Below are positions 1,799 through 21,989 of a stretch of DNA of 21,989 bases, one piece after another. The stretch's first letter is position 1; every line of letters begins with the position of its first letter. Under the pieces are notes generated by a model that did no database searches, was not told where the DNA came from, and saw only the letters and a list, made by a program, of their open reading frames with translations. Origin of the DNA: a virus. Location of the stretch: positions 1 to 21,989 of IMG/VR virus record IMGVR_UViG_3300042351_001682. One strand, 5' to 3'. Both the position numbers and the translations under genes were made by a program.

Positions 1799-2608
1799 AT
1801 GAGTATAGGAATTTATAAAATTACTAATCCTAAAGGTAAATTATATATAGGTAAAAGTAAAAATATAGAAAAAAGATTTAAATCATATTATAAAATGTGG
1901 CATTGTAATCAACAGATTCAATTATTTAATAGTTTAAGAAAATATGGACCTGAAAATCATACCTTTGAAATTATTGAAGAATGTTGTATTGATCAACTTA
2001 ATAAAAGGGAAATTTACTATATTAAATTATATAATTCTTTAGATAATGGATTAAATCTGACAATGGGGGGAGATGGAGGAAAAATAACAAAAGAAGCGGC
2101 CATATTAAGGGGACTTAAATCAAGAAAACCTATATTGCAATATGATTTAGAAGGTAATTTTATAAGAGAATTTTTGGGTGCTGTAGAAGCTATTGAATTC
2201 TTAGGAAGAGGTAATCCAAACAATATAAATGATTGCGCTCGAGGAAAATATATTAGTACATATGGTTATATATGGGTATATAAATGTGGGGATATAGAAC
2301 AAATTATATCTCCAAGACTTTCCAATCAAGGATGCCATAATAAATGGGATAAAGAAAGAAGAGAAAAAATAACCCAATCCAGAATGAACGAAAAAAGAAG
2401 TAAAGAATTCTGTGATAAAATGTCAAATCTAAAAAAGAAAAAAATATATCAGTATGATATTTATAATAAATTAAATAATACTTTTCCTAGTTTTAATTCA
2501 TTTGATGGGTGTGGGGTTATAGGAACAACAAAACTTAGAAAAATTTTAAATAAAAATATATACTATAAAGGTTATAAGTACACTAATACTAAATTGAATA
2601 ATGATTAA
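1799..2608 (+). CDS. GIY-YIG homing endonuclease with NUMOD-type DNA-binding modules
   Basis: The N-terminal nuclease domain (about 1-90) shows GIY at 4-6, YIG at 16-18, the catalytic Arg at 26 (NIEKRF) and the catalytic Glu at 71 in KREIYYI. From about residue 110, IlQYDLEGNFIREF followed by the ANINDCARG-like segment and YGYIW matches the NUMOD1/HTH module of free-standing phage homing enzymes. A basic NUMOD3-like linker (about 185-215) and a second QYD module follow. The gene is inserted between two cargo-like genes, and its tail overlaps the next ATG by 8 nt. Its role is mobility: it cuts cognate sites in related genomes to spread itself. It is not a structural gene. Confidence 0.9.
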   Translation: MSIGIYKITNPKGKLYIGKSKNIEKRFKSYYKMWHCNQQIQLFNSLRKYGPENHTFEIIEECCIDQLNKREIYYIKLYNSLDNGLNLTMGGDGGKITKEAAILRGLKSRKPILQYDLEGNFIREFLGAVEAIEFLGRGNPNNINDCARGKYISTYGYIWVYKCGDIEQIISPRLSNQGCHNKWDKERREKITQSRMNEKRSKEFCDKMSNLKKKKIYQYDIYNKLNNTFPSFNSFDGCGVIGTTKLRKILNKNIYYKGYKYTNTKLNND

Positions 2609-3119
2609 ATTAAAAGATATATTCGAAAATGAAATAATAGATCAAGTATTCCAAATATATTGTGATTTAGACGGATGTTTAGCCGACTTTGATAAACGAT
2701 TCGAATATTTTGCAGGGATGTCTCCTTCTGAATATGAAAAGGCATTTGGGATTAAAAAGTTTTGGGAATTGATAGACGAAAAAGTAGGTGTAAAATTTTG
2801 GACAGGGATTCCTTGGATGGAAGATGGTAAAATACTTTGGGAATTTATCAAACCACACAATCCAATAATTCTCTCAGCTCCTTCTAGGAATGAAGTAAGT
2901 AAAATGGGTAAAAGAATTTGGGTGAAAAGAAATATGCCTGGAACTAAACTCATCTTGGCAAGTAGAGGTAATAAACAAAATTACTCTGATAAATCTAATA
3001 TACTTATCGACGATAGATTAGACACAATTGAAGAATGGAGAGCAAAGGGAGGAATAGGAATTCATCATACTTCAGCATCATCCACAATTTCACAATTAAA
3101 AAAATTAGGATTTAAATAA
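2601..3119 (+). CDS. HAD-superfamily phosphatase, 5'(3')-deoxyribonucleotidase-like, with targeting-like N-terminus
   Basis: The HAD motifs are in order. Motif I is DLDGCLADF at 22-30, with nucleophile D22 and acid D24. Motif II is the LSAPS segment near S92. A motif III lysine region lies around 116-131, and motif IV is ILIDDR at 134-139. Size and layout fit the NT5C-type deoxyribonucleotidase family, which dephosphorylates dNMPs. The first ten residues, MIKLKDIFEN, match the MIKLxDIxxE leader of five other proteins in this window and are not part of a normal HAD fold. They suggest prohead targeting with cleavage at IFE|N. The ATG overlaps the end of the homing endonuclease gene, so this start was probably created or preserved by that insertion. 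Confidence 0.8.
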   Translation: MIKLKDIFENEIIDQVFQIYCDLDGCLADFDKRFEYFAGMSPSEYEKAFGIKKFWELIDEKVGVKFWTGIPWMEDGKILWEFIKPHNPIILSAPSRNEVSKMGKRIWVKRNMPGTKLILASRGNKQNYSDKSNILIDDRLDTIEEWRAKGGIGIHHTSASSTISQLKKLGFK

Positions 3120-5910: not shown

Positions 5911-7211
5911 TGAACCAAACCTCAGGCCTCATCGTAAAAGGTGTAAATCCTATAGACAATCATGAAATAAGTAATGTTATTCAAGGTGGCACATTTTACG
6001 GTGAGTGGTTTCCTGATAAAAATCATTGGTTCTTTCCTTTTGATGAACAAAACTTGTTATCATTAAGGGATGATTTAGAACAAAAATTTATTGATACTGG
6101 AATTCATGCAGTATATACTGAAGTTGATGTAGAATTAAACGAATCTCTATCTAAAAAAGTAATAGATGCTAGAGAGGAAATTCTTAAAAACATGAAATCA
6201 AATAAAAGAGAATTAGTAAAGCGATATGGTGCTGATGCTGAGAAAGTTATGTATGGTAGAGCAACAAATTTAGCAAAAAAACAAATAAATAAAATGAACA
6301 CAGAAAAATTAAGAGAACTTATAAAAAGTAAACTTTTAGAAGCTCCTAAAAAAGATCTAAATAACGACGGAGAAATAAACTCAAAAGACTATTTAATGGC
6401 TCGTGATAAAGCTATTAAAGCAAAAATGGGAAATACAAACGAAGCCGAAGAAGGTGATTTTATTTCTGATTTTATTAAAGCATTAGAAGATGTTAAAACT
6501 GTTTTTTTATCTAAATCAAAAAATAATAAAATAAAAGGTCCAATTCTTAAAGCATTTAATGAATTTATTGATGAAATAGATAGACTTGCTCCTCAAAAAT
6601 TAAAAGAAAACATGAGCGGAGAATCAGGCATAATGGTATTTGGTAGAACTCCTATAGATAATAATGCAATCGGTGAATTTATCGAAGAAGAAGATTATTA
6701 TTATGCAGAGTGGAATAGAGAAGGATTTTGGTTTTTTCCTGAACAAGAAGATTCATATAATGATTTAGAAAAAGCATTAGATAGAGAATTTGCTAAAAGA
6801 GGAATTGATGCAAGATTTGAAGGAATATTTATGGAATCATTAAATGAAGATGATTGGATGCAAGCTGATGACGAATCAGATATGGCTAAGTCGCAATTAA
6901 GATCTATTCAATCTAATGTTTCTAAATTAATGAACATGATTGGAGATGACGAACAATTAGACGCTTGGGTACAAGCTAAATTAACTAAAGCAGAAGACTA
7001 CTTAAACTCAGTTGAAGGATATTTAGAGGGTGAAAGTAGTTTAACTGAAAATGATGTTAAAAAAGACACTCCTGAAATTAAAGCATTAATGGTTACTGCC
7101 GATGATACATCAAAAACCCCAACAGAAAGAGATAAAGCAAGACAAAAATCATCTAATTTTGCTAAAACATTAGCTGAAAAATTAGCTAAACAAATTAAAG
7201 GAAATGACTAA
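5910..7211 (+). CDS. Multi-module virion-type protein with internal duplication and an EF-hand/dockerin-like loop
   Basis: Residues about 6-78 and 239-312 are two copies of the same domain. [15 protein letters not shown] aligns with [25 protein letters not shown] with [10 protein letters not shown], and both end in NES/LNE. Between them are a [21 protein letters not shown] helix (about 104-124), the shared peptide [15 protein letters not shown] (131-145), and [12 protein letters not shown] (149-160). The last fits a calcium-binding EF-hand or dockerin loop (D-x-N-x-D-G-x-I-N-x-x-D). Residues about 322-375 form a helical module ([10 protein letters not shown]...[12 protein letters not shown]). 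TNEA and LNE|D sites punctuate the modules. This looks like a composite internal or structural protein, perhaps processed in the prohead. The exact role is unknown. Confidence 0.75.
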
Positions 7212-7641
7212 AACTGATCTTCGAAATTTAATTAGAAGCATAGCTCAACCTATTCTAAAGACTCCACCATCTACAGAAATACCAAATGTAGAATATGAGG
7301 AATTAGAAAAATTCCCTGAATTAAAAAAAATAATCGTTGATCTACTTACCCAAGACTATGCTCGTTTTTTAGATGGAATTGATTGGGTTGCTCCTCGCCC
7401 TACTACATTTAGAATAAATTTACTAAATGGACAAAATTTTTATCTGATATATGGAAAACGTAGTTGGATAGCTCAAGTTGAAGGTAAAAAATACTATCTT
7501 TTAAACCTAAACGAAGAAGAATCAGCGTGTCAAGCAATTGCTGGAATATTAAGGTTTGGTGCTAAAAATAAACCAGTAGCTGAAGGAGAAGAAGAAGAAT
7601 CTAAAGAAGAAGAAATACCTAAAGAAGAAGCCCCCGAATAA
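7204..7641 (+). CDS. Unknown 145-aa protein with targeting-like N-terminus and acidic tail
   Basis: The start overlaps the preceding stop by 8 nt. [19 protein letters not shown] matches the shared LRxxIK leader. Residues about 30-120 form a compact mixed fold ([37 protein letters not shown]). The last 20 residues are almost all Glu/Pro/Lys, a flexible acidic tail like that of scaffold or core proteins. The family is not recognised. The context among cargo-like proteins favours a virion-internal role. Confidence 0.77.
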
Positions 7642-7644
7642 ACT

Positions 7645-8667
7645 ATGGACGTATTTGATAAATTTTTTAAGAAATATTCATATAAATTTCCAAAAGGATA
7701 TCCTGACATGAAAAATGAGCAGGATGTTTTACTGCTCGAATCAATATTAAAAGAATTAGGTATAGACTTAAATGAAGCAAAAAAATCATATAGGGAAATC
7801 ATTAGAACTATATTATCATCACCCGAAGCAAAGGGTAAATTAGATACCCATTCAAGACCACAAAGAGTAAAAAATATAGGAAATATAAGTAATAATGATT
7901 TTGTAGATATACTATCAAATATTTTTGATATAGATGCTAAAGATATTAAAATATTACCTCCAAAAGCAGTAGGAAATCCTAGTAGTAAAAATTTTGCATT
8001 TCAATTCTCTATTGAAGGTCAAGAAGTAACACTTGTATTAGGAACTGAATCTCGCGGAACTAATATTGAAGATTATGAATTAAGCAATTTAAATGATTTT
8101 ATTAATAAAAATGGAGGAAGTATAAATATCAAAGTTGGGGATACAATATATAAAGATATTACTAAAGTTGAAAAAGTACCTGGTAATAAACAAGCTGATT
8201 TCGTATTTGCGGGAAAAACTAATTTATATATTCAACATAAAGATCTTAACGGATCACAACAATTATCAGGAGTAAAAAAATTAGAAGCAAATCCTGAAGT
8301 TAAAAGTTTTGTTAAAGCTGTAAAAGAAGCATCAGGTGGAACCCTTCAAAGTAAAATGAATTTTAAAAGAGAAGTAGATTCTATTGACTTGCAACTTAAA
8401 GGAGCATACGGTATAGGAGATTCATTTGGGGTAGATAAAGTCCAATCTATTATGTTTGGAAATATAGAAATTAGACCATCACGTAGTGGTACATATTTTG
8501 AATTATATAGTCCAGTTCAATTTGAATATCCAAATCCTTTAACTGGAGATTATGCGTTATATTTATTTGCCACTTATAGAAGTTATGGTATAAATCAACA
8601 AGGTATTAATAATTGCCGAATTGGTTTTTATCCATTAAAATTTTATCCATCCGCTAAAAATATTTAA
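7645..8667 (+). CDS. Possible PD-(D/E)XK nuclease-like protein with an N-terminal LNE|A module
   Basis: The N-terminal 45 residues (FFKKYSYKFPKGYPD, LLLESILKELGIDLNEA) form a separable module ending in LNE|A at 42-45, a good prohead-protease-type site. Further on, KQADFVFAGKTNLYIQHKD at 182-200 has the hydrophobic strand pattern D185...Q197-x-K199 expected of a PD-(D/E)XK core, with Gln in the E position. A glycine/glutamine-rich segment (GSQQLSGV) follows, as in related phage proteins. The C-terminal third (about 270-340) is beta-rich. The mature protein after cleavage would be about 295 residues. Nuclease activity is only a suggestion, because the second acidic residue is replaced. Confidence 0.7.
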   Translation: MDVFDKFFKKYSYKFPKGYPDMKNEQDVLLLESILKELGIDLNEAKKSYREIIRTILSSPEAKGKLDTHSRPQRVKNIGNISNNDFVDILSNIFDIDAKDIKILPPKAVGNPSSKNFAFQFSIEGQEVTLVLGTESRGTNIEDYELSNLNDFINKNGGSINIKVGDTIYKDITKVEKVPGNKQADFVFAGKTNLYIQHKDLNGSQQLSGVKKLEANPEVKSFVKAVKEASGGTLQSKMNFKREVDSIDLQLKGAYGIGDSFGVDKVQSIMFGNIEIRPSRSGTYFELYSPVQFEYPNPLTGDYALYLFATYRSYGINQQGINNCRIGFYPLKFYPSAKNI

Positions 8668-9634: not shown

Positions 9635-10261
9635 ATGGCTTACGTTTATATTATAACTAACATTATAAATAATAAAAAATATATAGGATCTTCTAGAAAA
9701 CAAACTGTAGATCCTCACTATTATGGTAGTGGGAAAAGAATAAAAAATGCTATTAAAAAGTATGGTATTGTAAATTTTACTAGAGAAATATTATGGGAAG
9801 GTGAAGGAGACGCTAGAAATGTAGAAACTTATTGGTTAGAATGTTTTAATGCTGCCTCTAATCCTCAATTTTATAATATGACTAATGATGCTAGAGGAAA
9901 TACTTTACATAAAGAAGAAACAAAACTCACTATTAGCGAAAAATTAACAGGTCGTAAATTTTCTAAAGAGATATGTGATAAAATATCCAAAAACAAAAAA
10001 GGTAAACCCAATCATAAGAAAGGTAAACCTGATGGTCCTAAACCTGGAGTTACTGAAGCCCATAAAGGTAGAGTTAGTCCTAATAAAGGAAAAGGAAATC
10101 AAGTAGCTTTATATAAAATATCTGGAGAATATATTAAAACTTATTCTAATTATCATGACCTAGCTATTGATATACAAATACACCCAGAAACAGTAAGATG
10201 TCAACTTGTTGGAAAATCTCAAACAATTAAGAATAAACAATATAGAGCACAATATTTATAA
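9635..10261 (+). CDS. GIY-YIG homing endonuclease with NUMOD3 region
   Basis: The nuclease domain has VYI at 4-6, YIG at 16-18, a GSGKRIKNAIKKYG helix, and a catalytic Glu region near ETYWLECF. Residues about 90-153 are a chain of basic NUMOD3-type minor-groove-binding segments (KLTGRKFSKE, KKGKPNHKKGKP, HKGRVSPNKGKG). The last 50 residues are a helix-turn-helix-like module (YNxHDLAIDIQIHPETVRCQL). The gene sits directly upstream of the LRR gene at 10265. Its role is self-spreading by double-strand cleavage, not virion assembly. Confidence 0.9.
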   Translation: MAYVYIITNIINNKKYIGSSRKQTVDPHYYGSGKRIKNAIKKYGIVNFTREILWEGEGDARNVETYWLECFNAASNPQFYNMTNDARGNTLHKEETKLTISEKLTGRKFSKEICDKISKNKKGKPNHKKGKPDGPKPGVTEAHKGRVSPNKGKGNQVALYKISGEYIKTYSNYHDLAIDIQIHPETVRCQLVGKSQTIKNKQYRAQYL

Positions 10262-10264
10262 TAA

Positions 10265-11044
10265 ATGATAAAACTTTTAGACCTTTTACGCGAAGAAAAA
10301 CTTGATATCCTTAAACCTAGACGTTCCCCTGAAGAACGCCAAGCTAACTTTCTCATTACAACCAATAAAAAAATTGAACAATACATAAAGGATGGAGGCA
10401 AAGGTGATCTTAATCTACAAAATACCCCAATTACTACATTACCAAATGATTTAACAGTTGGAGGTGATCTTGATTTATATGGTACCAAAATTACATCATT
10501 ACCGAATGGTCTAACGGTTGGTGGCTATCTTAATTTAAAGCGTACCAAAATTACCTCATTACCAAATGGTCTAAAGGTTGGAGGTGATCTTGATTTATAT
10601 GGTACCAAAATTACATCATTACCTAATGGTCTAACGGTTGGAGGTAATCTTGATTTAGAAGATACCCCAATTACCACATTATCAAATGATCTAACAGTTG
10701 GAGGTTACCTTTATTTAGCAAATACTAAAATTACCTCATTGCCAAATGGTCTAAAGGTTGATGGCTATCTTAATTTAGCAAATACTCCAATTACATCATT
10801 ACCGAATGATTTAAAAGTTGGGGGTAATCTTAATTTACATGATACTAAAATTACCTCATTACCTAATGGTCTAACGGTTGGTGGCTATCTTGATTTATAT
10901 GGTACTAAAATTACATCATTACCAAATGGTTTAACGGTTGGAGGTTACCTTTATTTAGCAAATACTCCAATAAGTAAAAAATATTCTAAGGAAGAAATTA
11001 AAAAAATGGTTCCCGGAGTAAAGGGCAATATTTATATAAAATAA
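10265..11044 (+). CDS. LRR-type 20-residue repeat protein with capsid-targeting-like N-terminus (copy A)
   Basis: MIKLLDLLREE (1-11) matches the shared MIKLxDLLxE leader, with LRE|E as the possible cleavage site. Residues 12-47 (ILKPRRSPEERQANFL, KKIEQYIKDGGKG) are a helical cap. From residue 48 there are nine 20-residue units (xLxLxxTxITSLPNGLTVGG) and a half unit. The protein ends with TPISKKYSKEEIKKMVPG, the same capping tail as the other two copies. The repeat spacing suits a short-LRR solenoid. The residues that vary between units (flanking LxL) would lie on the exposed beta-sheet face. The start is ATG after TATAATAA. A binding protein delivered with the virion is the inference; the ligand is unknown. 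Confidence 0.88.
   Translation: MIKLLDLLREEKLDILKPRRSPEERQANFLITTNKKIEQYIKDGGKGDLNLQNTPITTLPNDLTVGGDLDLYGTKITSLPNGLTVGGYLNLKRTKITSLPNGLKVGGDLDLYGTKITSLPNGLTVGGNLDLEDTPITTLSNDLTVGGYLYLANTKITSLPNGLKVDGYLNLANTPITSLPNDLKVGGNLNLHDTKITSLPNGLTVGGYLDLYGTKITSLPNGLTVGGYLYLANTPISKKYSKEEIKKMVPGVKGNIYIK
10406..10945 (+). repeat. Nine in-frame 60-bp tandem repeats (LRR units, copy A)
   Basis: Each 60-base block encodes one unit. The LPNGLTVGG-coding half is nearly constant. The codons around CTT-xxT-TTA-xxx-xxT differ from unit to unit. Confidence 0.92.
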
Positions 11045-11050
11045 AAACAA

Positions 11051-11800
11051 ATGAATTTATCACACCCCAAACTTTTATTAGAAAACAAAAAATACATTTT
11101 AGAAAACGTAAAGTTAGCTAAACAGTATGTTGATTCAAATCAAATTACTAATGATTTTTTAAATACCTTAGTTCAAGCTGATCCTACTCCTACTAAAAAA
11201 TATGTTGGGTGGATGGCTAAACAATGGGTAAATAAAAGTGTATCTGATATTGACGAATTAAGAAATACGATTGAAGAGTTTAATACTTTCCTTAACAAAG
11301 GAAAAATGAAAACTAAAGATATAAACGCATTCAAATCTTTTAATGATTTAAAACAAGAAATAACCAAACTAAACCAATCAGGTGAAGGTAAATCGATTAA
11401 AGACTTAGAAAAAGATTACGATGTAGTAGTAGATAATAATGACTTAGTAATAATGTCTCCTCACACCCATGAAGCCTCTCGTAAATTAGGTTTAAGTGTT
11501 TTCTCATTCAGAGACTGTGAAGGAGGAGGAAAAGATTCATCATGGTGTACAACATATAAAGCACCTGACCATTTTAATGATTATTACTACACCCATAACG
11601 TTACTTTTTACTATATAAAGATAAAATCTCCAAAATTATTGGAAGAATTAAAAACAGCATTTCCAAAAAAATATAAAGAATTACAAGTAGTAGCATTAGC
11701 AGTTCTTGATAATGGAAAAATAGATGGATATGATGGGTTAGACAAACAAATGAATAAAAAAGATATTGATACTTATACCGATATAATAGGAATTTCATGA
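11051..11800 (+). CDS. WCT-motif phage protein of unknown function, between the two LRR genes
   Basis: The N-terminus MNLSHPKLLLENKKYILEN has two possible LLE|N and ILE|N processing sites. Residues 44-60 (DPTPTKKYVGWMAKQWV) are a segment recurrent in aquatic T4-like phages. The core motif is SSWCTTYKAPDHF then NDYYYTHNVTFYYIKI at 163-191. This WCT...F..YY....FY.I signature recurs in many phage proteins of unknown function. An invariant-looking D155/C156 and C166 suggest a functional site. The stop overlaps the start of the second LRR gene (ATGA). The gene lies exactly between LRR paralogues, so a functional pairing with them is plausible but unproven. Confidence 0.78.
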   Translation: MNLSHPKLLLENKKYILENVKLAKQYVDSNQITNDFLNTLVQADPTPTKKYVGWMAKQWVNKSVSDIDELRNTIEEFNTFLNKGKMKTKDINAFKSFNDLKQEITKLNQSGEGKSIKDLEKDYDVVVDNNDLVIMSPHTHEASRKLGLSVFSFRDCEGGGKDSSWCTTYKAPDHFNDYYYTHNVTFYYIKIKSPKLLEELKTAFPKKYKELQVVALAVLDNGKIDGYDGLDKQMNKKDIDTYTDIIGIS

Positions 11801-12513
11801 TAAAACTTTTAGACCTTTTACGCGAAGAAAAGCTTGATATCCTTAAACCTAGACGCTCCCCGGAAGAACGCCAAGCTAACTTTCTCATTGCAACCAATAA
11901 AAAAATTGAACAATACATAAAGGATGGAGGCAAAGGTAATCTTGATTTGCGAAATACTCCAATTACCTCATTACCAAATGGTCTAAAGGTTGGTGGTAAT
12001 CTTTATTTAGCAAATACCCCAATTACCTCATTACCAAATGGTCTAACGGTTGGTGGCTATCTTAATTTATACAATACCCCAATTACATCATTACCAAATG
12101 GTCTAAAGGTTGATGGCTATCTTGATTTATATGGTACTAAAATTACCTCATTGCCAAATGGTCTAAAGGTTGGAGGTGATCTTAATTTAGTAAATACTCC
12201 AATTACATCATTACCAAATGGTCTAACGGTTGGTGGCCATCTTGATTTATACAATACCCCAATTACCTCATTGCCAAATGGTCTAAAGGTTGATGGCTAT
12301 CTTGATTTATATGGTACTAAAATTACCTCATTGCCAAATGATCTAACGGTTGGTGGCCATCTTGATTTATACAATACCCCAATTACCTCATTGCCAAATG
12401 GTTTAACGGTTGGTGGCTATCTTAATTTAGCAAATACCCCAATAAGTAAAAAATATTCCGAAGAAGAAATTGAAAAAATGGTTCCCGGAGTAAAGGGCAA
12501 TATTTATATATAA
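11797..12513 (+). CDS. LRR-type 20-residue repeat protein with capsid-targeting-like N-terminus (copy B)
   Basis: It has the same plan as copy A: leader MIKLLDLLREE, helical cap to residue 47, and eight 20-residue units from residue 48 with a capping half unit. The tail TPISKKYSEEEIEKMVPG follows. The first 140 bases differ from copy A at about four positions, three of them silent, while the order and content of repeat units differ. This indicates recent duplication or gene conversion of the ends, with reshuffling of the repeats. The start overlaps the stop of the 11051 gene (ATGA), so translation is probably coupled. Confidence 0.88.
   Translation: MIKLLDLLREEKLDILKPRRSPEERQANFLIATNKKIEQYIKDGGKGNLDLRNTPITSLPNGLKVGGNLYLANTPITSLPNGLTVGGYLNLYNTPITSLPNGLKVDGYLDLYGTKITSLPNGLKVGGDLNLVNTPITSLPNGLTVGGHLDLYNTPITSLPNGLKVDGYLDLYGTKITSLPNDLTVGGHLDLYNTPITSLPNGLTVGGYLNLANTPISKKYSEEEIEKMVPGVKGNIYI
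11938..12417 (+). repeat. Eight in-frame 60-bp tandem repeats (LRR units, copy B)
   Basis: The unit length and constant core are the same as at 10406-10945. Alternate units carry YNTP and YGTK types, giving a visible higher-order pattern (for example HLDLYN, YLDLYG, HLDLYN). Confidence 0.92.
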
Positions 12514-12524
12514 ACATAAAATAA

Positions 12525-13280
12525 GTGATTAAGCTTATAGACATATTCAATCAACTTCTCCAAGAAGAAAAAGAAAAACGCGACAGATGTTTACGTATTG
12601 CTGATCGCAAATACGATAAGCCATCTGCATACAAATCAGGAGCCGTTGTAAGATGTCGTAAAGGAGATATTTGGAAAGATTTAAAAGAAGATACAACCTC
12701 TTCAGCAGAACAAAAAATTGATGAGTTACCTAAGGGTAAACTATTTGATGATGCAAAAAATATAGAAGGCATCTTTAATAAAAGTCAACATAGTTGGAGT
12801 GAAGTAATCGAATTATTTGAAAAAAATAGAGATAAAGGTCAAGAACAATATGTGAACATAGAAGACATTCACATTACACAACCTAATATCCAAAGCAATA
12901 AAGTAAAACAGGTAATTACAAATACAAAAGAATTACCTATTATAAATATTGTTGAATTTCCAGACGGTGAAAAAGTAATTTATGACGGACATCATAGACT
13001 TGTAGCCAACTGGGCTCTAGGAAATGAAAAAATTAAAACAAACCTAGTTCAAGTTGAAAATTTAGAAGAAGCTGAATCATTACATAAGTGGTTTAACCGT
13101 CAAGGAGCAAAAGGAAAAGAAAAAGGATGGGTAGACTGTAATGCACCAGACGGAAACGGAGGTTATAAATCCTGCGGAAGAAAAGAAGGAGAGAAACGCT
13201 CTAAATATCCTGCCTGTAGACCAACAGCAGCACAATGTAAAACACCTGGTAAAGGTAAAAAGTGGGGTAAAACAAAATGA
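12525..13280 (+). CDS. ParB/Srx-like domain protein flanked by basic phage Cys modules
   Basis: The start is GTG, chosen because it restores the shared leader MIKLIDIF...LLQE|E. Residues 19-52 (RCLRIADRKYD, SAYKSGAVVRCRKG, IWKDLKE) are a basic module common in phage internal-type proteins. Residues about 108-178 are a ParB/sulfiredoxin-like fold (YVNIEDIHITQPN, LPIINIVEF, YDGHHRLVANWALG), with GHHR at 155-158 at the nucleotide-binding turn. Residues 189-251 (GWVDCNAP, KSCGRK, YPACRPTAAQCK) form a second basic Cys-rich module. The ParB-like core could bind DNA or nucleotides, or cleave DNA. The flanking cationic modules and the leader suggest packaged, DNA-associated cargo. Confidence 0.8.
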   Translation: MIKLIDIFNQLLQEEKEKRDRCLRIADRKYDKPSAYKSGAVVRCRKGDIWKDLKEDTTSSAEQKIDELPKGKLFDDAKNIEGIFNKSQHSWSEVIELFEKNRDKGQEQYVNIEDIHITQPNIQSNKVKQVITNTKELPIINIVEFPDGEKVIYDGHHRLVANWALGNEKIKTNLVQVENLEEAESLHKWFNRQGAKGKEKGWVDCNAPDGNGGYKSCGRKEGEKRSKYPACRPTAAQCKTPGKGKKWGKTK

Positions 13281-13594
13281 TAAAACTTCTTCAACTACTA
13301 ACTGAAGCTAAAGAAAGCTTTGAACAATTTGCTAAAAATCGTTTAGCAGGTGCTGAAAAAATTATAGCTAATGCTAAGGAAAAAGGTGGAGATGCTTTAT
13401 TAACATATAATCACTTTAATGTAAAACCACCTTATTATAAAAAAGCAATAAATGGTAAATTTGATAAAGAAGCGGCCAAAAAGGAATTTGAAGAAATATA
13501 TAAAAAAATATCATTAAACATGACCCAAACCGAATTTCAAAAAGAAGTTGGTCGTTTAGAAGTATTAGGTGAACTATTAATAAGAGAAAAATAA
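13277..13594 (+). CDS. Unknown 105-aa protein with LTE|A leader
   Basis: MIKLLQLLTEA (1-11) is one of the cleanest matches to a T4-type capsid-targeting sequence. LTE|A would be cut to release a protein of about 95 residues. The mature part is helical and basic, with NRLAGAEKIIANAKEKGGDA and a YNHFNVKPPYYKKA segment. The ATG overlaps the previous stop. No enzymatic motif is visible. The best inference is a small internal protein comparable in size and behaviour, not in sequence, to T4 IPI-IPIII. Confidence 0.8.
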   Translation: MIKLLQLLTEAKESFEQFAKNRLAGAEKIIANAKEKGGDALLTYNHFNVKPPYYKKAINGKFDKEAAKKEFEEIYKKISLNMTQTEFQKEVGRLEVLGELLIREK

Positions 13595-13595
13595 T

Positions 13596-14015
13596 ATGAT
13601 TAAATTAACAGATATACTAAACGAAGCAGAGATAAATAAATGTCCGTCTCCAACTCAAAATATTGAGTTAAACCTTCAAAATAGACAGAAGGCAATTAAT
13701 GAATATGGATATGGTCCCTTAAATCCTAATGAACCTAATGAAAAGTTTTGGCAAGCTAAAGCAGATATGTGGAAACTTGATTCTGTAAAAGAGGCCAAAA
13801 CATCACGTTGTGGTAATTGTGCGGCTTTCGATGTTACAGAAAAAACATTAAATTGCATAGCTAAAGGAATAGGAAACGATGAAGGATCAGAAAATCCATT
13901 TGACGTAATTAAAGCAGGACAATTAGGATATTGTAGGTTTTTAAAATTCAAATGTGCCGCTGCTCGAACTTGCGATGCTTGGGTTATTGGTGGTCCAATT
14001 AAAGATTCAATATAA
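13596..14015 (+). CDS. Cys-rich protein with LNE|A leader (possible Fe-S or zinc protein)
   Basis: MIKLTDILNEA gives the ideal cleavage site LNE|A at 8-11. After CPSPTQNIELNLQNRQKAI and YGYGPLNPNEPNEKFW come seven cysteines in all: C16, C72, C75, C87, C113, C120 and C126. They sit in RCGNCAAFD, NCIAKGI, GYCRFLKFKC and RTCDAWV. This family is common in T4-like phages of aquatic bacteria. The C-x2-C...C...C...C spacing recalls HiPIP-type iron-sulfur proteins, but the assignment is tentative. Disulfide or zinc binding would also fit. Confidence 0.78.
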   Translation: MIKLTDILNEAEINKCPSPTQNIELNLQNRQKAINEYGYGPLNPNEPNEKFWQAKADMWKLDSVKEAKTSRCGNCAAFDVTEKTLNCIAKGIGNDEGSENPFDVIKAGQLGYCRFLKFKCAAARTCDAWVIGGPIKDSI

Positions 14016-14278
14016 TGAAACCATATACTGACGTTTTAACAACGGAAAATACAATTATCAGGGAGTTTGGTGATAACATAGATCCCGTTGAATTAAAATG
14101 GCATTTGGATGAGTGTAGCCGCCACGTTACCATTTTAGAGGGTAAAGGATGGAAATATCAAGAAGATAATAAATTACCTTTGGAACTTAACGAAGGGGAT
14201 TGTATATTTATACCAAAACAAACATTTCACCGTATTTATAAAGGAACAACACCACTAAAAATAAAAATTCATCAATGA
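14015..14278 (+). CDS. Small cupin-fold protein (87 aa)
   Basis: The sequence has the two-part cupin layout. The first strand group contains LKWHLDECSRHVTILEGKGW, with possible metal ligands H30, D32/E33 and H37. The second contains LNEGDCIFIPKQTFHRIYKG, with G-D...P...H. A closely similar single-domain cupin is common in T4-like aquatic phages. It starts at the TAATG overlap with the previous gene and ends overlapping the next ATG. The substrate is unknown. No targeting leader is present, so it may act in the host cytoplasm. Confidence 0.75.
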   Translation: MKPYTDVLTTENTIIREFGDNIDPVELKWHLDECSRHVTILEGKGWKYQEDNKLPLELNEGDCIFIPKQTFHRIYKGTTPLKIKIHQ

Positions 14279-14904
14279 AAAAACAAATGCTAAGCGAACA
14301 ATTCCTACGTATGCAAAAGCTAGCAGGTATTATTAACGAATCTGAATATAAGCAAGACCTAGAAGAAACTAATGTTGAATTAGATGATCAAGAACAAGAT
14401 GTGATTGATGGTCTTAAAAGTGAGATGGATGGTGTTTTAAAAGGAATGGAAAAAGAACTTGAAAAAGTATCTAAAACTGCAAATGAAGGTATCTTAACAG
14501 CAGCTAGTATCGCCCTTGCATTACCAGCAGTTATGGGTCTAATATCTAGACTTGGAAAATCCGCAGGTACTTTAGTTAACAAAATGTTAGGTAAAAAACC
14601 TTCAAATGATTCTGATTATCAGAAATGGATGAGTAAATTGGGTAATATTGCTGATCAATTACATCATTTATATGTAATTCCTATTGAAGCGATTGTTAAA
14701 AAGTTTGTTAAAGACCCAGAAAAAGCTCATAAAGTAGCAAATGGTATATTTCATGTTATTGTGGCTGTTTTGTTTATAGCCTCAGGAGTTACAGCTGTGA
14801 AAGCACTTCAAGCTAAAAATGTATCTTTAGCCACTTTAGAAAGTGCTTTAAGTGCAGTTAAGGGAGGGGAAATTAAAACATATATCTCTAATCTTTTATC
14901 ATAA
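14275..14904 (+). CDS. Two-helix membrane protein with INE|S targeting-like leader
   Basis: The leader QFLRMQKLAGIINE|SEYKQ (9-27) is a third variant of the shared N-terminal peptide, with cleavage possible at INE|S. An acidic helical segment follows (24-70). Two hydrophobic helices lie at about 72-93 (ILTAASIALALPAVMGLI) and 156-178 (GIFHVIVAVLFIASGVTAV), separated by a basic loop. The rest is soluble. A packaged protein with membrane-inserting helices would suit a role in the host envelope during DNA entry; this is an inference. It is the last gene before the strong terminator. Confidence 0.75.
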   Translation: MKKQMLSEQFLRMQKLAGIINESEYKQDLEETNVELDDQEQDVIDGLKSEMDGVLKGMEKELEKVSKTANEGILTAASIALALPAVMGLISRLGKSAGTLVNKMLGKKPSNDSDYQKWMSKLGNIADQLHHLYVIPIEAIVKKFVKDPEKAHKVANGIFHVIVAVLFIASGVTAVKALQAKNVSLATLESALSAVKGGEIKTYISNLLS

Positions 14905-15054: not shown

Positions 15055-15906
15055 ATGACTAAAATTTATATATTAGAACAAGATGGAGTTCCGTTTTATG
15101 TTGGAAAGGCTAAAGACACAGTTAGAAGAAAACATAAACATTATATTACATATGGTACTGATATAATATTAACTATTATTGATGAAGTTGAGGATTGGAG
15201 ATACTGGGAAGAATTTTATATTTGGTTATTTAAAAGTTGGGGTTTTAAATTAGAAAATAAAAATAATGGTGGAGGTGGTCCATCAAGCTATACTGAAGAA
15301 CAAAAAGATAAAATGAGAAAACCACGTAAGGAAGGAACAGGAGATAAAATTAGCAAAACTTTAAAAGAAAGAAATCATTCAAAATATTATACTGAAGAAG
15401 TAAGGCAGAGAATGAGGGAAAATTTGAAAGGAAGTCATGGAGGTTCTTTTACAGAAGAACATACTAAAAATTTAACAAAAAGCCACAGAAAAAGATCTAA
15501 AAAAGTTTTAATGTATAATTTTCAAGGAGAACTTGTAAAAGAATGGGAAAATAAAGGAGAAGCTGTTGAATGGGTTAAAGAAAATAATAAAAGAGCAAGA
15601 AAACAAAATGTTAATTCTCAAATAAAAGATTGTTGTTTTGGAAAAATAAAAAGTTGTTGGGGGTATATTTGGAGATATGAAGGAGATAATACACCTTTAG
15701 TCCCTAAATTTAAAACAGTATATCAATTCGATATTAATTTTAAATTAATAAACGAATTTAAATCTTTATTCCAACTAAAGGAATGGATCTCTAGAAATTT
15801 ACCTAATAGAAATATATCAGGTATATCTAGCCTTATAAAAAAACATTCACAAAATAAAATATATAAAGTAGATAATAATTATTATTCAATAAATAAAGAA
15901 ATATGA
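15055..15906 (+). CDS. GIY-YIG-type homing endonuclease with NUMOD modules
   Basis: The divergent nuclease core reads KIYILEQDGVPFYVGKAKDTVRRKHKHY, with IYI for GIY and YVG for YIG at 15-17. A catalytic Glu region lies near YWEEFYIWLF. Residues about 78-150 are basic NUMOD3-like segments (SYTEEQKDKMRKPRK, YTEEVRQRMRENLKG, FTEEHTKNLTKSHRK). QlMYNFQGELVKEW-type and VYQFDINFKLINEF segments are two NUMOD1-like modules, with CWGYIWRYEG between them. It is placed between the terminator and the FAD enzyme gene, whose ATG it overlaps. It is a mobile gene, the third of its type in this window. Confidence 0.85.
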   Translation: MTKIYILEQDGVPFYVGKAKDTVRRKHKHYITYGTDIILTIIDEVEDWRYWEEFYIWLFKSWGFKLENKNNGGGGPSSYTEEQKDKMRKPRKEGTGDKISKTLKERNHSKYYTEEVRQRMRENLKGSHGGSFTEEHTKNLTKSHRKRSKKVLMYNFQGELVKEWENKGEAVEWVKENNKRARKQNVNSQIKDCCFGKIKSCWGYIWRYEGDNTPLVPKFKTVYQFDINFKLINEFKSLFQLKEWISRNLPNRNISGISSLIKKHSQNKIYKVDNNYYSINKEI

Positions 15907-17585: not shown

Positions 17586-18128
17586 ATGAAAAAAGGATAT
17601 AAGTTAGGATTTTGCGGTTCAGTCAGTGTAGGAAAAACCACTTTAGTAAATGAATTAGCTAAATTAGAGCAATTTAAAGAATATTACATAGCAACTGAAC
17701 GTTCTAAATATTTAAGAGATTTAGGCATTCCATTAAACACAGACTCTACTTTATTAGGTCAAACTATATTCTTATCAGAACGTTGTTCTGAATTATTAAG
17801 GGATAATGTACTAACAGATAGAAGTATAATTGATGTAATGGCATTTACATCTTTATCTAAATCAATGTCAAGAACAGAAATATTATCATTTTGTGATTAT
17901 GCATCAAATTTTATATCTTTATACGATCATATATTTTATGTATCTCCTGAAGGTGTAAAATTAGAAGACAATGGAGTAAGGGCGGTTGACGCAGAATATA
18001 GAGATCAAATAGATGAAGAAATTAAATATTTATTAGGAATTTACAAATCTAAAATTAAAAACTTTCACGTAATATCAGGTATTGTTGAAGAACGTATGGA
18101 GCAGGTTAAACAAGCACTTTCTTTATAA
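17586..18128 (+). CDS. P-loop AAA/NadR-like kinase
   Basis: Walker A is GSVSVGKTT at 11-19 within LGFCGSVSVGKTTLV. The following TERSKYLRDLG and LSERCSELLRDNVLTDRSIIDVMAF segments match the AAA_28 / NadR ribosylnicotinamide-kinase-like nucleoside kinase group, in which DRS is the Walker-B-like lid region. The length of 180 residues is typical. It probably phosphorylates a nucleoside, nucleotide or nicotinamide riboside; the substrate is not decidable from sequence. A late-promoter-like octamer lies upstream. Confidence 0.75.
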   Translation: MKKGYKLGFCGSVSVGKTTLVNELAKLEQFKEYYIATERSKYLRDLGIPLNTDSTLLGQTIFLSERCSELLRDNVLTDRSIIDVMAFTSLSKSMSRTEILSFCDYASNFISLYDHIFYVSPEGVKLEDNGVRAVDAEYRDQIDEEIKYLLGIYKSKIKNFHVISGIVEERMEQVKQALSL

Positions 18129-18149: not shown

Positions 18150-19049
18150 ATGAAGAAATCTGATCTTAAAAAACATATCAAAGAAGAAATACTTTCGATC
18201 CTAAAAGAAGCATCAACAGCATTAGTAACTTCTAAAGGAGGAACAAAACCAGTATCTTTCTCATCCCCTTCAGAATTAAATGCTCTTAAAACAGATTCTA
18301 ACGTAACATCAATCACAACAACTGCAGGGCAAAAGATTAAAGAAACCGAATCTACAGAAACATATATGATTTCTAAAGCAGGTTCTAAAGGTATTCCATA
18401 TTATGTTTTAGAAAAACCAGATGGGTCTAAACAAATAGATATGATGTTTTCTTCCCCTGAAGAAGCTAAAAAATATGCTACTAAGAAAAATCTAAAATTA
18501 TCCTCTAAAAAAGGATATAATATGAATGAAGCCAAAGAAATAAATGGCATTCCGGGTACTGTAACAATTGGTGGAGGTAAAAGCGGGATTTTAATCCCAA
18601 CTAATCAAGGAGATTATATATATTATGTAACAGATGATGAATATAATGCTTTTATTAATGCCGGAGGTAATGCTCAAAAATTAATGGCAACTATTTTCCT
18701 TAAATCAGGTAAAGCAAAACCATACAAACCTAAATATAACCCAATGGCTAGTTTAGGTGGAGGGAAAGGATACCACATTGATGAAGATAAAATTGAATCT
18801 GATTTTTTTGAACGAGAACCAAAATCTAAAGATATTGAGAAAGGAGAAGGCATAATAGCTAAAACTAAAAATCTTTTAAATTTTCAAAAAGAATTAAAAA
18901 CATTATCTAAAGATATGCAAGATTTAGCTGCTGAATATAGAGAAGCTGAAGGATCTGATAAAGATGAAATTTTACGTTCATTAAAAGTTAAAACTGCCGC
19001 TAAAAAGGAATTAGAGAAAAAAATAGAACAACTTGAAAAATATGTATAG
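18150..19049 (+). CDS. Unknown coiled-coil protein with LKE|A leader and internal MNE|A site
   Basis: MKKSDLKKHIKEEILSILKE|A is the clearest long-form targeting leader in the window, cut predicted after residue 20. A Ser/Thr-rich segment (21-70) and a small domain (YYVLEKPDGSKQIDM, 80-110) are followed by NMNE|AKEING at 124-132. A second domain (about 132-185) and a C-terminal coiled coil of about 65 residues (LLNFQKELKTLSKDMQDL, KKELEKKIEQLEKYV) complete it. The architecture suggests a scaffold- or core-like or injected protein processed into two parts. It precedes the terminase block. Confidence 0.78.
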   Translation: MKKSDLKKHIKEEILSILKEASTALVTSKGGTKPVSFSSPSELNALKTDSNVTSITTTAGQKIKETESTETYMISKAGSKGIPYYVLEKPDGSKQIDMMFSSPEEAKKYATKKNLKLSSKKGYNMNEAKEINGIPGTVTIGGGKSGILIPTNQGDYIYYVTDDEYNAFINAGGNAQKLMATIFLKSGKAKPYKPKYNPMASLGGGKGYHIDEDKIESDFFEREPKSKDIEKGEGIIAKTKNLLNFQKELKTLSKDMQDLAAEYREAEGSDKDEILRSLKVKTAAKKELEKKIEQLEKYV

Positions 19050-19707: not shown

Positions 19708-21288
19708 TTGGAACATCAAATAAAAGATATAATGAGGCAGGAGTACATAAAATGTCTCCAAGATCCTGCCCATTTTATGAAAAAATATTGTCACATTAGT
19801 CATCCTCAAAGAGGAAGAATTATGTTTCACTTATATCCGTTTCAAGAAAAGGTATTAGGCCTATTCCAAAAAAATCCATACTCTATAATACTTAAATCTC
19901 GTCAGCTAGGTATATCTACATTAGCTGGTGGGTATGCTTTATGGTTAATGTTATTTCATAAAGATAAGAATATTTTATGTATTGCAACTAAACAGGATAC
20001 AGCTAAAAATATGGTTACTAAGGTAAAATTTATGTATGATAATTTACCTTCATGGTTAAAAGAAAAAGATAAACCCTTAGAAGACAATAAACTAACTCTC
20101 AAACTAAATAACGGCTCTCAAATTAAAGCAACATCTGCCTCAAGTGATGCAGGTAGATCAGAAGCTGTGTCCTTACTATTAGTAGATGAGGCCGCTTTTA
20201 TTGAAAATATTGGAGAGATTTGGGCCTCAGCTCAACAAACATTAGCAACAGGAGGAGGAGCAATTGTTCTTAGCACTCCATACGGAACAGGAAATTGGTT
20301 CCATCAAACATGGGTCAAAGCAGAAGCATCTGAAAATGACTTCTTACCTATCAGACTTCCATGGTATGTTCATCCTGAAAGAGACCAGGCATGGAGAGAT
20401 AAACAAAATGACTTATTAGGAGATCCAAGATTAGCAGCTCAAGAGTGTGACACAGACTTCTCTAATTCAGGAGATACTGTATTTCATCCTGAATATATAA
20501 AATACTATGAAGAAACTTATATTAAGGAACCGTTGGAGAGGCGAGGAGTTGATCGTAACTTATGGGTATGGGAATCTCCAGACTATACTCGTCAATATTT
20601 AGTAGTAGCGGATGTAGCTAGGGGTGATGGGAAGGATTTCTCAGCATTCCATGTTATTGATGTTGAGTCAAATACGCAAGTTGCTGAATATAAAGGGCAA
20701 ATTGGGACTAGAGAATTTGGATACCTATTAGTAGGAGTAGCTACTGAATATAATAATGCTTTATTAGTAGTTGAAAATGCGAATATAGGATGGAGTACAC
20801 TACAAACCATTCAAGAACGAAACTATGCTAATTTATATTATTCTCCAAAAAATGGAGAAATTACAGCTGATTCATATTTCGATCAGTTTATGGATTCAAG
20901 TAAAACAGTAGCAGGGTTTACGATGTCTTTAAGAACAAGACCTATGGTAATAGGTAAATTTCAAGAATATGTTGGTGACAGATCAGTAGTTATTCAATCT
21001 AAAAGATTATTAGAAGAAATGAAAGTGTTTATTTGGAAAAATGGTAGAGCTGAAGCTCAACAAGGGTATAATGATGATTTAATTATGCCATTTTCTATTG
21101 CTATGTATTTAAGAGACACAGCATTTAAATTTAAACAACAAGGTATAGATTTAACTAGAACCGCATTAAACAATTTTTCAACAGGAAAAAATCAATATCA
21201 AGGAGCTTATTTTTCAAAAGGAGTAGATAATCCATACTCTATGAATATAAAAGGTCATAATGAAGATTTAACATGGTTAACAAAATAA
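19708..21288 (+). CDS. Large terminase subunit, T4 gp17-like
   Basis: This is the packaging motor ATPase and headful nuclease that pumps DNA through the portal. Numbered from the TTG start, the Walker A-type KSRQLGIST lies at 63-71, Walker B LLLVDEAAF with D160/E161, and the coupling motif IVLSTPYG follows. The RNase-H-fold nuclease has DVARGDGKDF (D302), VVENANIG (E356) and NDDLIM (D456/D457), giving the expected acidic triad. Gene order, directly before the portal, supports the call. The TTG at 19708 is only three bases after the previous stop. The ATG at 19732 (MRQEYIKCLQDPAHF, 518 aa) has an A-rich leader like its neighbours and is a credible alternative start. Confidence 0.96.
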   Translation: MEHQIKDIMRQEYIKCLQDPAHFMKKYCHISHPQRGRIMFHLYPFQEKVLGLFQKNPYSIILKSRQLGISTLAGGYALWLMLFHKDKNILCIATKQDTAKNMVTKVKFMYDNLPSWLKEKDKPLEDNKLTLKLNNGSQIKATSASSDAGRSEAVSLLLVDEAAFIENIGEIWASAQQTLATGGGAIVLSTPYGTGNWFHQTWVKAEASENDFLPIRLPWYVHPERDQAWRDKQNDLLGDPRLAAQECDTDFSNSGDTVFHPEYIKYYEETYIKEPLERRGVDRNLWVWESPDYTRQYLVVADVARGDGKDFSAFHVIDVESNTQVAEYKGQIGTREFGYLLVGVATEYNNALLVVENANIGWSTLQTIQERNYANLYYSPKNGEITADSYFDQFMDSSKTVAGFTMSLRTRPMVIGKFQEYVGDRSVVIQSKRLLEEMKVFIWKNGRAEAQQGYNDDLIMPFSIAMYLRDTAFKFKQQGIDLTRTALNNFSTGKNQYQGAYFSKGVDNPYSMNIKGHNEDLTWLTK

Positions 21289-21297
21289 AAATAAAAA

Positions 21298-21989
21298 ATG
21301 GCAGATAAAAGTATATTTACAAGACTAAAAAGATTATTCTCTACAGATGTAATCATCAGAAATCAAGGAGGAAATAATGTTCGTGTAATAGATGTTAACC
21401 ACATCCAAACAACTGGAGAAATTGAAACTAATTCACTTCAAGATAGATTTAATAGAATATATAGTAGTACAAATCCTTCATCATTATATGGAGCCCAATT
21501 TAATCTTAATTATCAATATTTAAGAACTCAAATGTATTCTGAATATGATGTTATGGATACAGATGCTATTATAGCTTCCGCTCTAGATATTATTGCAGAT
21601 GAAAGTACATTAAAAAACGAACAGGGAGAAGTATTACAAATTGTAAGTAGTGATGAAGATGTTCAAAAAATATTATATAACTTATTTTATGATGTATTAA
21701 ATATAGAATTTAATATGTGGTCATGGGTAAGACAAATGTGTAAATATGGTGACTTTTTCTTAAAATTAGAGATAGCTGATAAATTTGGAGTATATAATAT
21801 TATCCCATATACTGCATATCATATTGAAAGACAAGAAGGATACGATAAAGCAAATCCGGCTTCTATAAGATATGCATTTTCACCTGATGGTTTTGCTGGA
21901 GGTAGTTATGGTTACTATAACTTACCAAATCAACCTACTAATTCAAATCGAATTTATTTTGATAACTATGAGATGGCTCATTTTAGGTT
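21298..21989 (+). CDS. Portal protein, T4 gp20-like, N-terminal 230 residues (runs off window)
   Basis: The frame from ATG at 21298 (leader AATAAAAA) stays open to the window end with no stop. It encodes MADKSIFTRLKRLFSTD, then the portal signatures YSEYDVMDTDAIIASALDI, IADEST, YGDFFLKLEI and GVYNIIPYTAYHIERQEG. The visible part ends at NYEMAHFR, the equivalent of the IAHFR segment of gp20. The portal forms the dodecameric ring at the capsid vertex through which terminase packages DNA. The position right after terminase, without gp18/gp19-like genes between, differs from T4. Confidence 0.93.
   Translation, partial: MADKSIFTRLKRLFSTDVIIRNQGGNNVRVIDVNHIQTTGEIETNSLQDRFNRIYSSTNPSSLYGAQFNLNYQYLRTQMYSEYDVMDTDAIIASALDIIADESTLKNEQGEVLQIVSSDEDVQKILYNLFYDVLNIEFNMWSWVRQMCKYGDFFLKLEIADKFGVYNIIPYTAYHIERQEGYDKANPASIRYAFSPDGFAGGSYGYYNLPNQPTNSNRIYFDNYEMAHFR

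Follow-up and report, generated by a model that had tools for sequence, protein, structure and literature searches.

The window, by which we mean the whole stretch of DNA analysed, comprises all 21,989 bases of one IMG/VR record and is a fragment of a T4-like phage. As its terminase is 60% identical to that of Flavobacterium phage immuto, it probably infects a bacterium of the Bacteroidota, an inference which rests on this likeness. The window is syntenic with a 148.6 kb relative (which we refer to as G001), and all LRR-bearing relatives used here were metagenome contigs. The features of the window are as follows:

2-310, + strand: LRR gene C, partial, truncated where the record starts, which leaves its last four units and the C-terminal cap
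321-719, + strand: gene with the second leader type (MKKSELRQIIKEE), body unrelated to LRR
2601-3119, + strand: nucleotidase-like gene (named from the annotation of its immuto homologue) with first-type leader MIKLKDIFENE
9635-10261, + strand: GIY-YIG homing endonuclease, directly upstream of gene A
10265-11044, + strand: LRR gene A, 259 aa; the leader is followed by an N-terminal helix, a half-unit cap, nine 20-residue units and a C-terminal cap
10265-10294, + strand: gene A leader MIKLLDLLRE, a putative capsid-targeting sequence by comparison with T4; its [L]xE ends at residue 10
10439-10978, + strand: the nine 60-bp LRR units of gene A
11051-11800, + strand: partner gene, 249 aa, non-LRR (PHTHEASRKLGLS...KDSxWCTTYKAPDHFNDYYY), with its own LLxEN leader
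11797-12513, + strand: LRR gene B, 238 aa; the same layout as gene A, from leader, N-terminal helix and half-unit cap to C-terminal cap, but with eight units
11797-11826, + strand: gene B leader MIKLLDLLRE, a putative capsid-targeting sequence
11971-12450, + strand: the eight 60-bp LRR units of gene B
12525-13280, + strand: gene with a first-type leader (MIKLIDIFNQLLQEE), GTG start, unrelated body
13277-13594, + strand: gene with first-type leader MIKLLQLLTEA, unrelated body; the immuto start is similar (MRLLELLREA)
13596-14015, + strand: gene with first-type leader MIKLTDILNEA, unrelated body
14275-14904, + strand: gene with the third leader type (QFLRMQKLAGIINES), unrelated body
18150-19049, + strand: gene with the second leader type (MKKSDLKKHIKEE...LKEA), unrelated body
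19708-21288, + strand: T4-type terminase large subunit, where the head-gene region begins; the portal follows

Repeat units and predicted fold

Three LRR genes, one of them partial at the left edge and all built from a 60-bp, 20-residue unit, had been predicted from sequence alone, and all three (C, A and B) are present; the predicted difference in unit number also held for A (nine) against B (eight), partial C retaining four. The predicted interval was corrected, as it also encloses the unrelated 249-aa gene between A and B. Tandem Repeats Finder scored the LRR arrays at 339-803, and both A and B satisfy LRR membership, defined as tandem LxxLxLxxN/T-x-L units above the family cut-off (Pfam: LRR_4 at 31.1 and 33.9 bits against a cut-off of 27, LRR_1 at 25.1 and 26 against 20.6). 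The unit is laid out as L1 P2 x3 x4 L5 x6 V7 G8 G9 x10 L11 x12 L13 x14 x15 T16 x17 I18 x19 x20. Its LPNGLTVGG half, described in the original prediction as nearly invariant, is so only in part: the core L, P, L, V and G change almost only synonymously, but G/D at position 4, T/K at 6 and G/D at 8 vary. The claim that variation flanks LxL held, the positions being 10, 12, 14 and 15, plus 17.

Structure prediction, named beforehand as a check, was run for gene B with 23 relatives (AlphaFold2) and returned an LRR solenoid at high confidence (mean pLDDT 91.5) with regular strands, the first 20 residues alone being uncertain. A solenoid was to be recognised by a concave side to which each unit contributes a single short parallel strand; the model fits this, and it aligns to solved LRR proteins with Z of 15-22.7. 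In each unit the strand falls on positions 11-12; L11 and L13 point inward, so by alternation positions 10, 12 and 14 likely face outward, a reading taken from LRR geometry, as exposure was not computed from coordinates. The same geometry would put 15 and 17, the other variable positions, on the exposed side.

The nearest solved chain is 8z5u (Z 22.7 over 179 residues at 2.4 Å), followed by LRR domains of Leptospira, SHOC2, IpaH and SspH1. 8z5u is also the best sequence match among solved proteins (E 6e-40, with 46% identity across the LRR), but it is a cellular structural component, of the polar flagellar motor, with few surface data and no such leader; no report on it was found in the open-access literature searched. 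LRR domains of the IpaH/SspH/YopM type share the 20-residue LPxxL... units and the solenoid (Z 16-18), whereas the phage LRRs have an ITSLP/VGG consensus, a head-type leader in place of a type III secretion context and no E3 ligase domain: Pfam found no C-terminal E3 ligase domain in A or B, and the proteins end about 20 residues past the last unit. Among phages, the same unit type is found at 47-54% identity in LRR proteins of uncultured Caudovirales (BFVD A0A6J7X691 and A0A6J7X9U5) and in gp47 of Edwardsiella phage Edno5.

Scanning cellular assemblies with a single protein gave four LRR relatives, and the MIKL leader is absent from all four. These four (L108-L111), labelled Bacteroides, Patescibacteria, Rhizobiales and Sodalis, have the same LRR unit type, and two of them, L109 and L111, resemble phage or prophage.

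Variation on the predicted face and recombination between units

We compared 49 distinct units from the near clade of the window. At core positions 1, 5, 13 and 18 pN was 0.000 with silent change present, and position 11 was fixed, whereas at positions 10, 12, 14, 15 and 17 pN reached 0.31, 0.30, 0.77, 0.42 and 0.46 against pS of 0.24, 0, 0.36, 0 and 0. Background constraint in the other genes, window against G001, is pN/pS 0.37. As these units are old duplicates, pN/pS between them does not amount to a formal test of positive selection. The check set beforehand, an excess of non-synonymous change at the LxL flanks in related phages, was positive, and the result that would have refuted the idea, uniformly silent variation, is contradicted, as the predicted face changes its amino acids and the core changes silently.

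A second comparison drew on 73 arrays with 491 units. Codons for the same residue gave ratios of within-array to between-array diversity of 0.07-0.87 (mostly 0.1-0.6, median near 0.45) and residue 3 gave 0.35, whereas positions 10, 12, 14, 15 and 17 gave 0.92-0.99. As same-residue codons and residue 3 differ less within arrays than between them, the units are homogenised inside a gene: they undergo concerted evolution, from which the predicted face positions are exempt. If selection favoured faces that differ, homogenisation would be expected to spare exactly the predicted face, as it does; a ratio near 1 might also arise where fast-changing sites are saturated, which would still mean fast replacement.

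Recombination is seen directly in several cases, two of which are fused genes. In L012, the gene at 7211-7861 is chimeric, its 5' 335 bp being exactly those of gene 7869 and its 3' 323 bp exactly those of gene 6433, with an overlap of 7 bp; the sister contig L071 (98.7-99.2% identical) contains 6433 and 7869 without the chimera, which is a product of unequal crossing-over. The reciprocal product is found in L008, where a single gene stands in place of two in L009, being a fusion of L009-5391 then L009-6001 with their flanks and an overlap of 5 bp. Assemblers work with words much longer than these overlaps of 5-7 bp, and assembly collapse is therefore an unlikely cause of the chimeras.

Unit number changes between phages that are otherwise almost the same. 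L006 and L010 have six units at the gene A locus, between flanks 99.7-100% identical to those of the window; units near-identical to those of gene C occur there, and the 3' half of the gene is 98.7% identical to window gene C. Gene B in L010 has five units against eight, window units 4-6 being absent although the phages are otherwise near-identical; here assembly collapse remains possible because the junction identity is 67 bp. Between phages with 94-100% identical flanks the unit counts were 8/5, 9/6, 8/5 and 6/9, and L012/L044 and L071/L044 combine near-identical flanks with largely different units. A further pair, L016/L055, was set aside, as the L016 gene stops inside the array and the 234-bp difference is not one of whole units. 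In-frame recombination, as originally predicted, thus held in the form of chimeric genes, tandem gene gain and loss and whole-unit differences, and the copy-number check was positive: unit and gene number differ among near-identical phages, as seen in metagenome contigs.

On a neutral account the diversity would come from recombination and drift of the repeats alone, without selection for binding, and it is true that repeats recombine readily and that unit gain and loss are frequent. However, neutrality expects silent change to equal replacement change, where we find a silent core and a face changing by replacement; homogenisation spares the face, and reading frames are intact across about 100 arrays. 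We regard this account as all but excluded. A working analogy is offered by the variable lymphocyte receptors of jawless vertebrates, in which LRR modules are shuffled and the concave face is diversified (2o6s is a distant match), but these are of another LRR class and organism and are assembled somatically, as opposed to recombining in a phage population, and we claim no shared ancestry.

At unit positions 11-13 the codons CTT-NAT-TTA are nearly fixed in the window's clade even at silent sites, whilst the flanking codons vary; a recombination anchor or a codon constraint are both possible. NAT/NNT codons at positions 10, 12 and 15 had suggested adenine mutagenesis by a diversity-generating retroelement, a reading we rejected on two grounds: NNA codons are also used at position 14, and the search for a reverse transcriptase was negative, as RVT_1 had no match in G001 (148.6 kb) or in five other related records, which may be incomplete.

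Leaders and head genes

Genes A and B both start MIKLLDLLREE, following the pattern MIKLxDxLxE, with Leu-x-Glu at residue 10 as in the leaders of T4 internal proteins (in NC_000866, IPII begins MKTYQEFIAEA and IPIII likewise). In T4, the leaders that direct proteins to the capsid span 10-19 residues, of which 4 and 7 are involved in targeting and 8 and 10 in processing, and gp21 cleaves after Glu (PMC9026906). Both genes meet the definition of a T4-internal-protein leader as 10-19 residues with Leu/Ile-x-Glu, and [IL]xE is present at residue 9 or 10 in nearly all of 87 LRR relatives; the few family members without Glu at 9/10 include L050, L089 and L092. The likeness to T4 is limited to this short motif; in the first-type leader of A and B the residue that follows the predicted cut is Glu and not Ala, Gly or Ser, and AlphaFold2 confidence over the gene B leader is low (57-61).

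The leader is not confined to LRR genes: 21 genes in G001 carry one of three leader types ahead of unrelated bodies, and most of these lie either in a cluster next to the terminase, at 95-113 kb, or near the two ends of the record. In G001, [IL]xE at residues 7-24 is found in 24 of the 36 genes in leader regions compared to 39 of 155 elsewhere (p 6e-6); this is no independent test, as the regions were picked for their leaders, but it shows that the leaders carry the motif. The same leader classes lie upstream of the terminase in the cultured phage immuto, for which we found no report of proteomics in the open-access literature searched. In L026 (G001:387-791) an LRR gene has the second leader type (MKITEFKKLIKEEVRKVLKEN), so that one LRR body occurs with two leader types.

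A gp21-type protease, which such a leader would need, was identified as an S77 prohead protease in two relatives, G001 (2.5e-30) and G006 (7.7e-36); the window ends before the corresponding region. The G006 locus (L018) also places LRR genes inside the head operon, in the order terminase, portal, two genes, an LRR-fused protein, a MIKL-leader LRR gene, the S77 protease and a gp22-like gene. Over its first 54 residues the fused protein is related (41% identity, 5e-11) to the gene that directly precedes the protease in G001, and the T4 core proteins gp67/gp68 occupy the slot matching the fusion. In this protein (L018:4519-6378), between portal and prohead protease, the LRR array forms the C-terminus. 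The original prediction of a capsid-targeting-like leader is supported: it has the length and Leu/Ile-x-Glu spacing of T4 IPII/IPIII and is common to unrelated genes beside the head operon, with S77 present in two relatives.

In a structural alternative, the LRR proteins are prohead core or head parts that use the same leader and bind phage proteins, not host targets. In its favour are the fusion of an LRR array to the gp68-slot protein in L018 and the structural role of the closest solved LRR, 8z5u, in the bacterial polar flagellar motor. It predicts a conserved face, however, whereas no other part of the protein varies as much as the face; phages that are nearly identical differ in how many units and genes they have; and gene B has no tblastn match in cultured immuto, which means that heads in this lineage can be assembled without the LRRs. 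We consider this alternative unlikely.

The LRR proteins could instead be early or late effectors made in the infected cell and not injected, acting in host takeover, anti-defence or superinfection exclusion, with a leader that serves another purpose. The Edno5 relative fits such a role: it lacks the leader (the alignment with gene B begins only at residue 19, past the leader) and lies in the early lambdoid region of a temperate phage, beside repressor and RecT genes. On both counts the LRR body can work without packaging, and the Edno5 protein has itself been proposed as a eukaryote-directed ligase effector (PMC6372524). Moreover, the function of the leader rests on sequence only. Against this stand the occurrence of the leader, with T4-like spacing, on many unrelated genes near head genes, and the head-operon location in L018, and we think it improbable that this explanation, taken with these roles, is correct.

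A proposed role as injected binders

Our preferred reading is that the LRR proteins are head-packaged, injected binders of a host protein, diversified by recombination. We give this a probability of about 0.6, with no virion proteomics, cleavage or binding data in the sources searched, and the rating of the whole chain is this high because the statement allows any host protein. Its parts are not equally secure: we take the repeats, the selection and the recombination as shown, packaging in the head is likely and injection is favoured by a smaller margin, both being inferred, whilst the idea that the targets are host-defence proteins is a guess without binding data that could fall either way. 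Under the injected-binder reading, the short leader would target each LRR protein into the prohead core, a gp21-type protease would probably remove it after Glu at about residue 10, and the mature protein, a helix-capped LRR solenoid, would leave the head together with the DNA. Once in the new host it would bind a host protein, most likely a defence component, through its concave face, and several paralogues per genome, with recombination between 60-bp units and between neighbouring genes, would give new faces on a constant scaffold.

The closest known counterpart is the set of T4 internal proteins IPI, IPII and IPIII, injected inhibitors of GmrSD type IV restriction, which share only a leader and each block a different GmrSD (PMC12373910); diversity of injected cargo therefore has a known cause. 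Both systems have a short leader at the N-terminus, its Leu/Ile-x-Glu at residue 10, a diverse set of cargo proteins with the leader alone in common, and a T4-like phage with, here in relatives, an S77 prohead protease. They differ in that T4 cargo is small and mutually unrelated, whereas here a single repeat scaffold recombines by units, and in host and target.

The original prediction had favoured injected binders over tail receptors, and each link that could be tested supports it, injection and host binding being inferred only. The opposing view, that these are receptor-binding or surface proteins (of the tail or as capsid decoration) diversified for host range, can point to the diversified binding face and the paralogues, and LRR proteins can bind surface ligands. 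The LRR proteins have no apparent Sec-type signal, however, and a Pfam search found no tail-attachment domain in them; their genes lie with the leader genes beside the terminase, outside the G001 tail-fibre cluster (about 84-92 kb), and L018 has the head-core fusion. We hold this view to be very unlikely.

LRR proteins annotated in uncultured phages, the Edno5 LRR as a possible effector (PMC6372524) and the T4 internal proteins were already known; in the limited open-access literature searched we found no description of head-targeted, recombining LRR repertoires. Each T4 injected protein has a separate fold against one enzyme; if the LRR proteins are head cargo, one fast-recombining scaffold also yields many injected binders. 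Should this be true, variable host defence proteins are predicted as the targets, the arrays form a natural binder library with which new defence systems could be sought, and the means by which phages keep pace with varied hosts become directly testable in cultured relatives that share the leaders.

A bolder version, which we rate as less likely than not, holds that T4-like phages, probably of Bacteroidota, carry a modular, antibody-like counter-defence in the form of an injected LRR repertoire: one scaffold, in which recombination of units and neighbouring genes would continually yield new specificities against host defence proteins, with the WCTT partner as a shared effector or chaperone. 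The stop of the partner gene overlaps the start of gene B (ATGA), and in 36 related loci, not all of them on separate contigs, a member of its family directly precedes an LRR gene. Its AlphaFold2 model has a pLDDT of 73 and is poor at the centre; there was no PDB sequence match at E < 0.1 and no PDB chain above Z 3.6, and a weak 20% match is to Pseudomonas jumbo phages. The partner family has the conserved motifs PHTHEASRKLGLS and WCTTYKAPDHFNDYYY and is coupled to LRR genes in dozens of contigs.

Further observations concern the remainder of the window and G001. The window has three GIY-YIG homing-endonuclease-like genes (9635-10261, 1799-2608 and 15055-15906), and in G001 a different GIY-YIG gene (104871-105656) is directly upstream of an LRR gene. 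We rejected a homing endonuclease as a general driver, as it adjoins the LRR gene only in the window's own clade. The T4 late promoter TATAAATA occurs at 14 sites against 8.8 expected, mostly on the other strand, and was set aside as evidence. The gene at 719-1765 joins a nucleotidyltransferase-like N-terminal half (GAFKPPTEGHF) to a C-terminal HEIIHH zinc-protease-like motif; the immuto gene at the equivalent position is annotated as NadR, and the window gene and a NadR-like kinase at 17586-18128 may form an NAD-related pair. G001 also encodes GroES-like (21006-21299) and GroEL-like (21312-22919) chaperonins (L027, G001:20001-40000).
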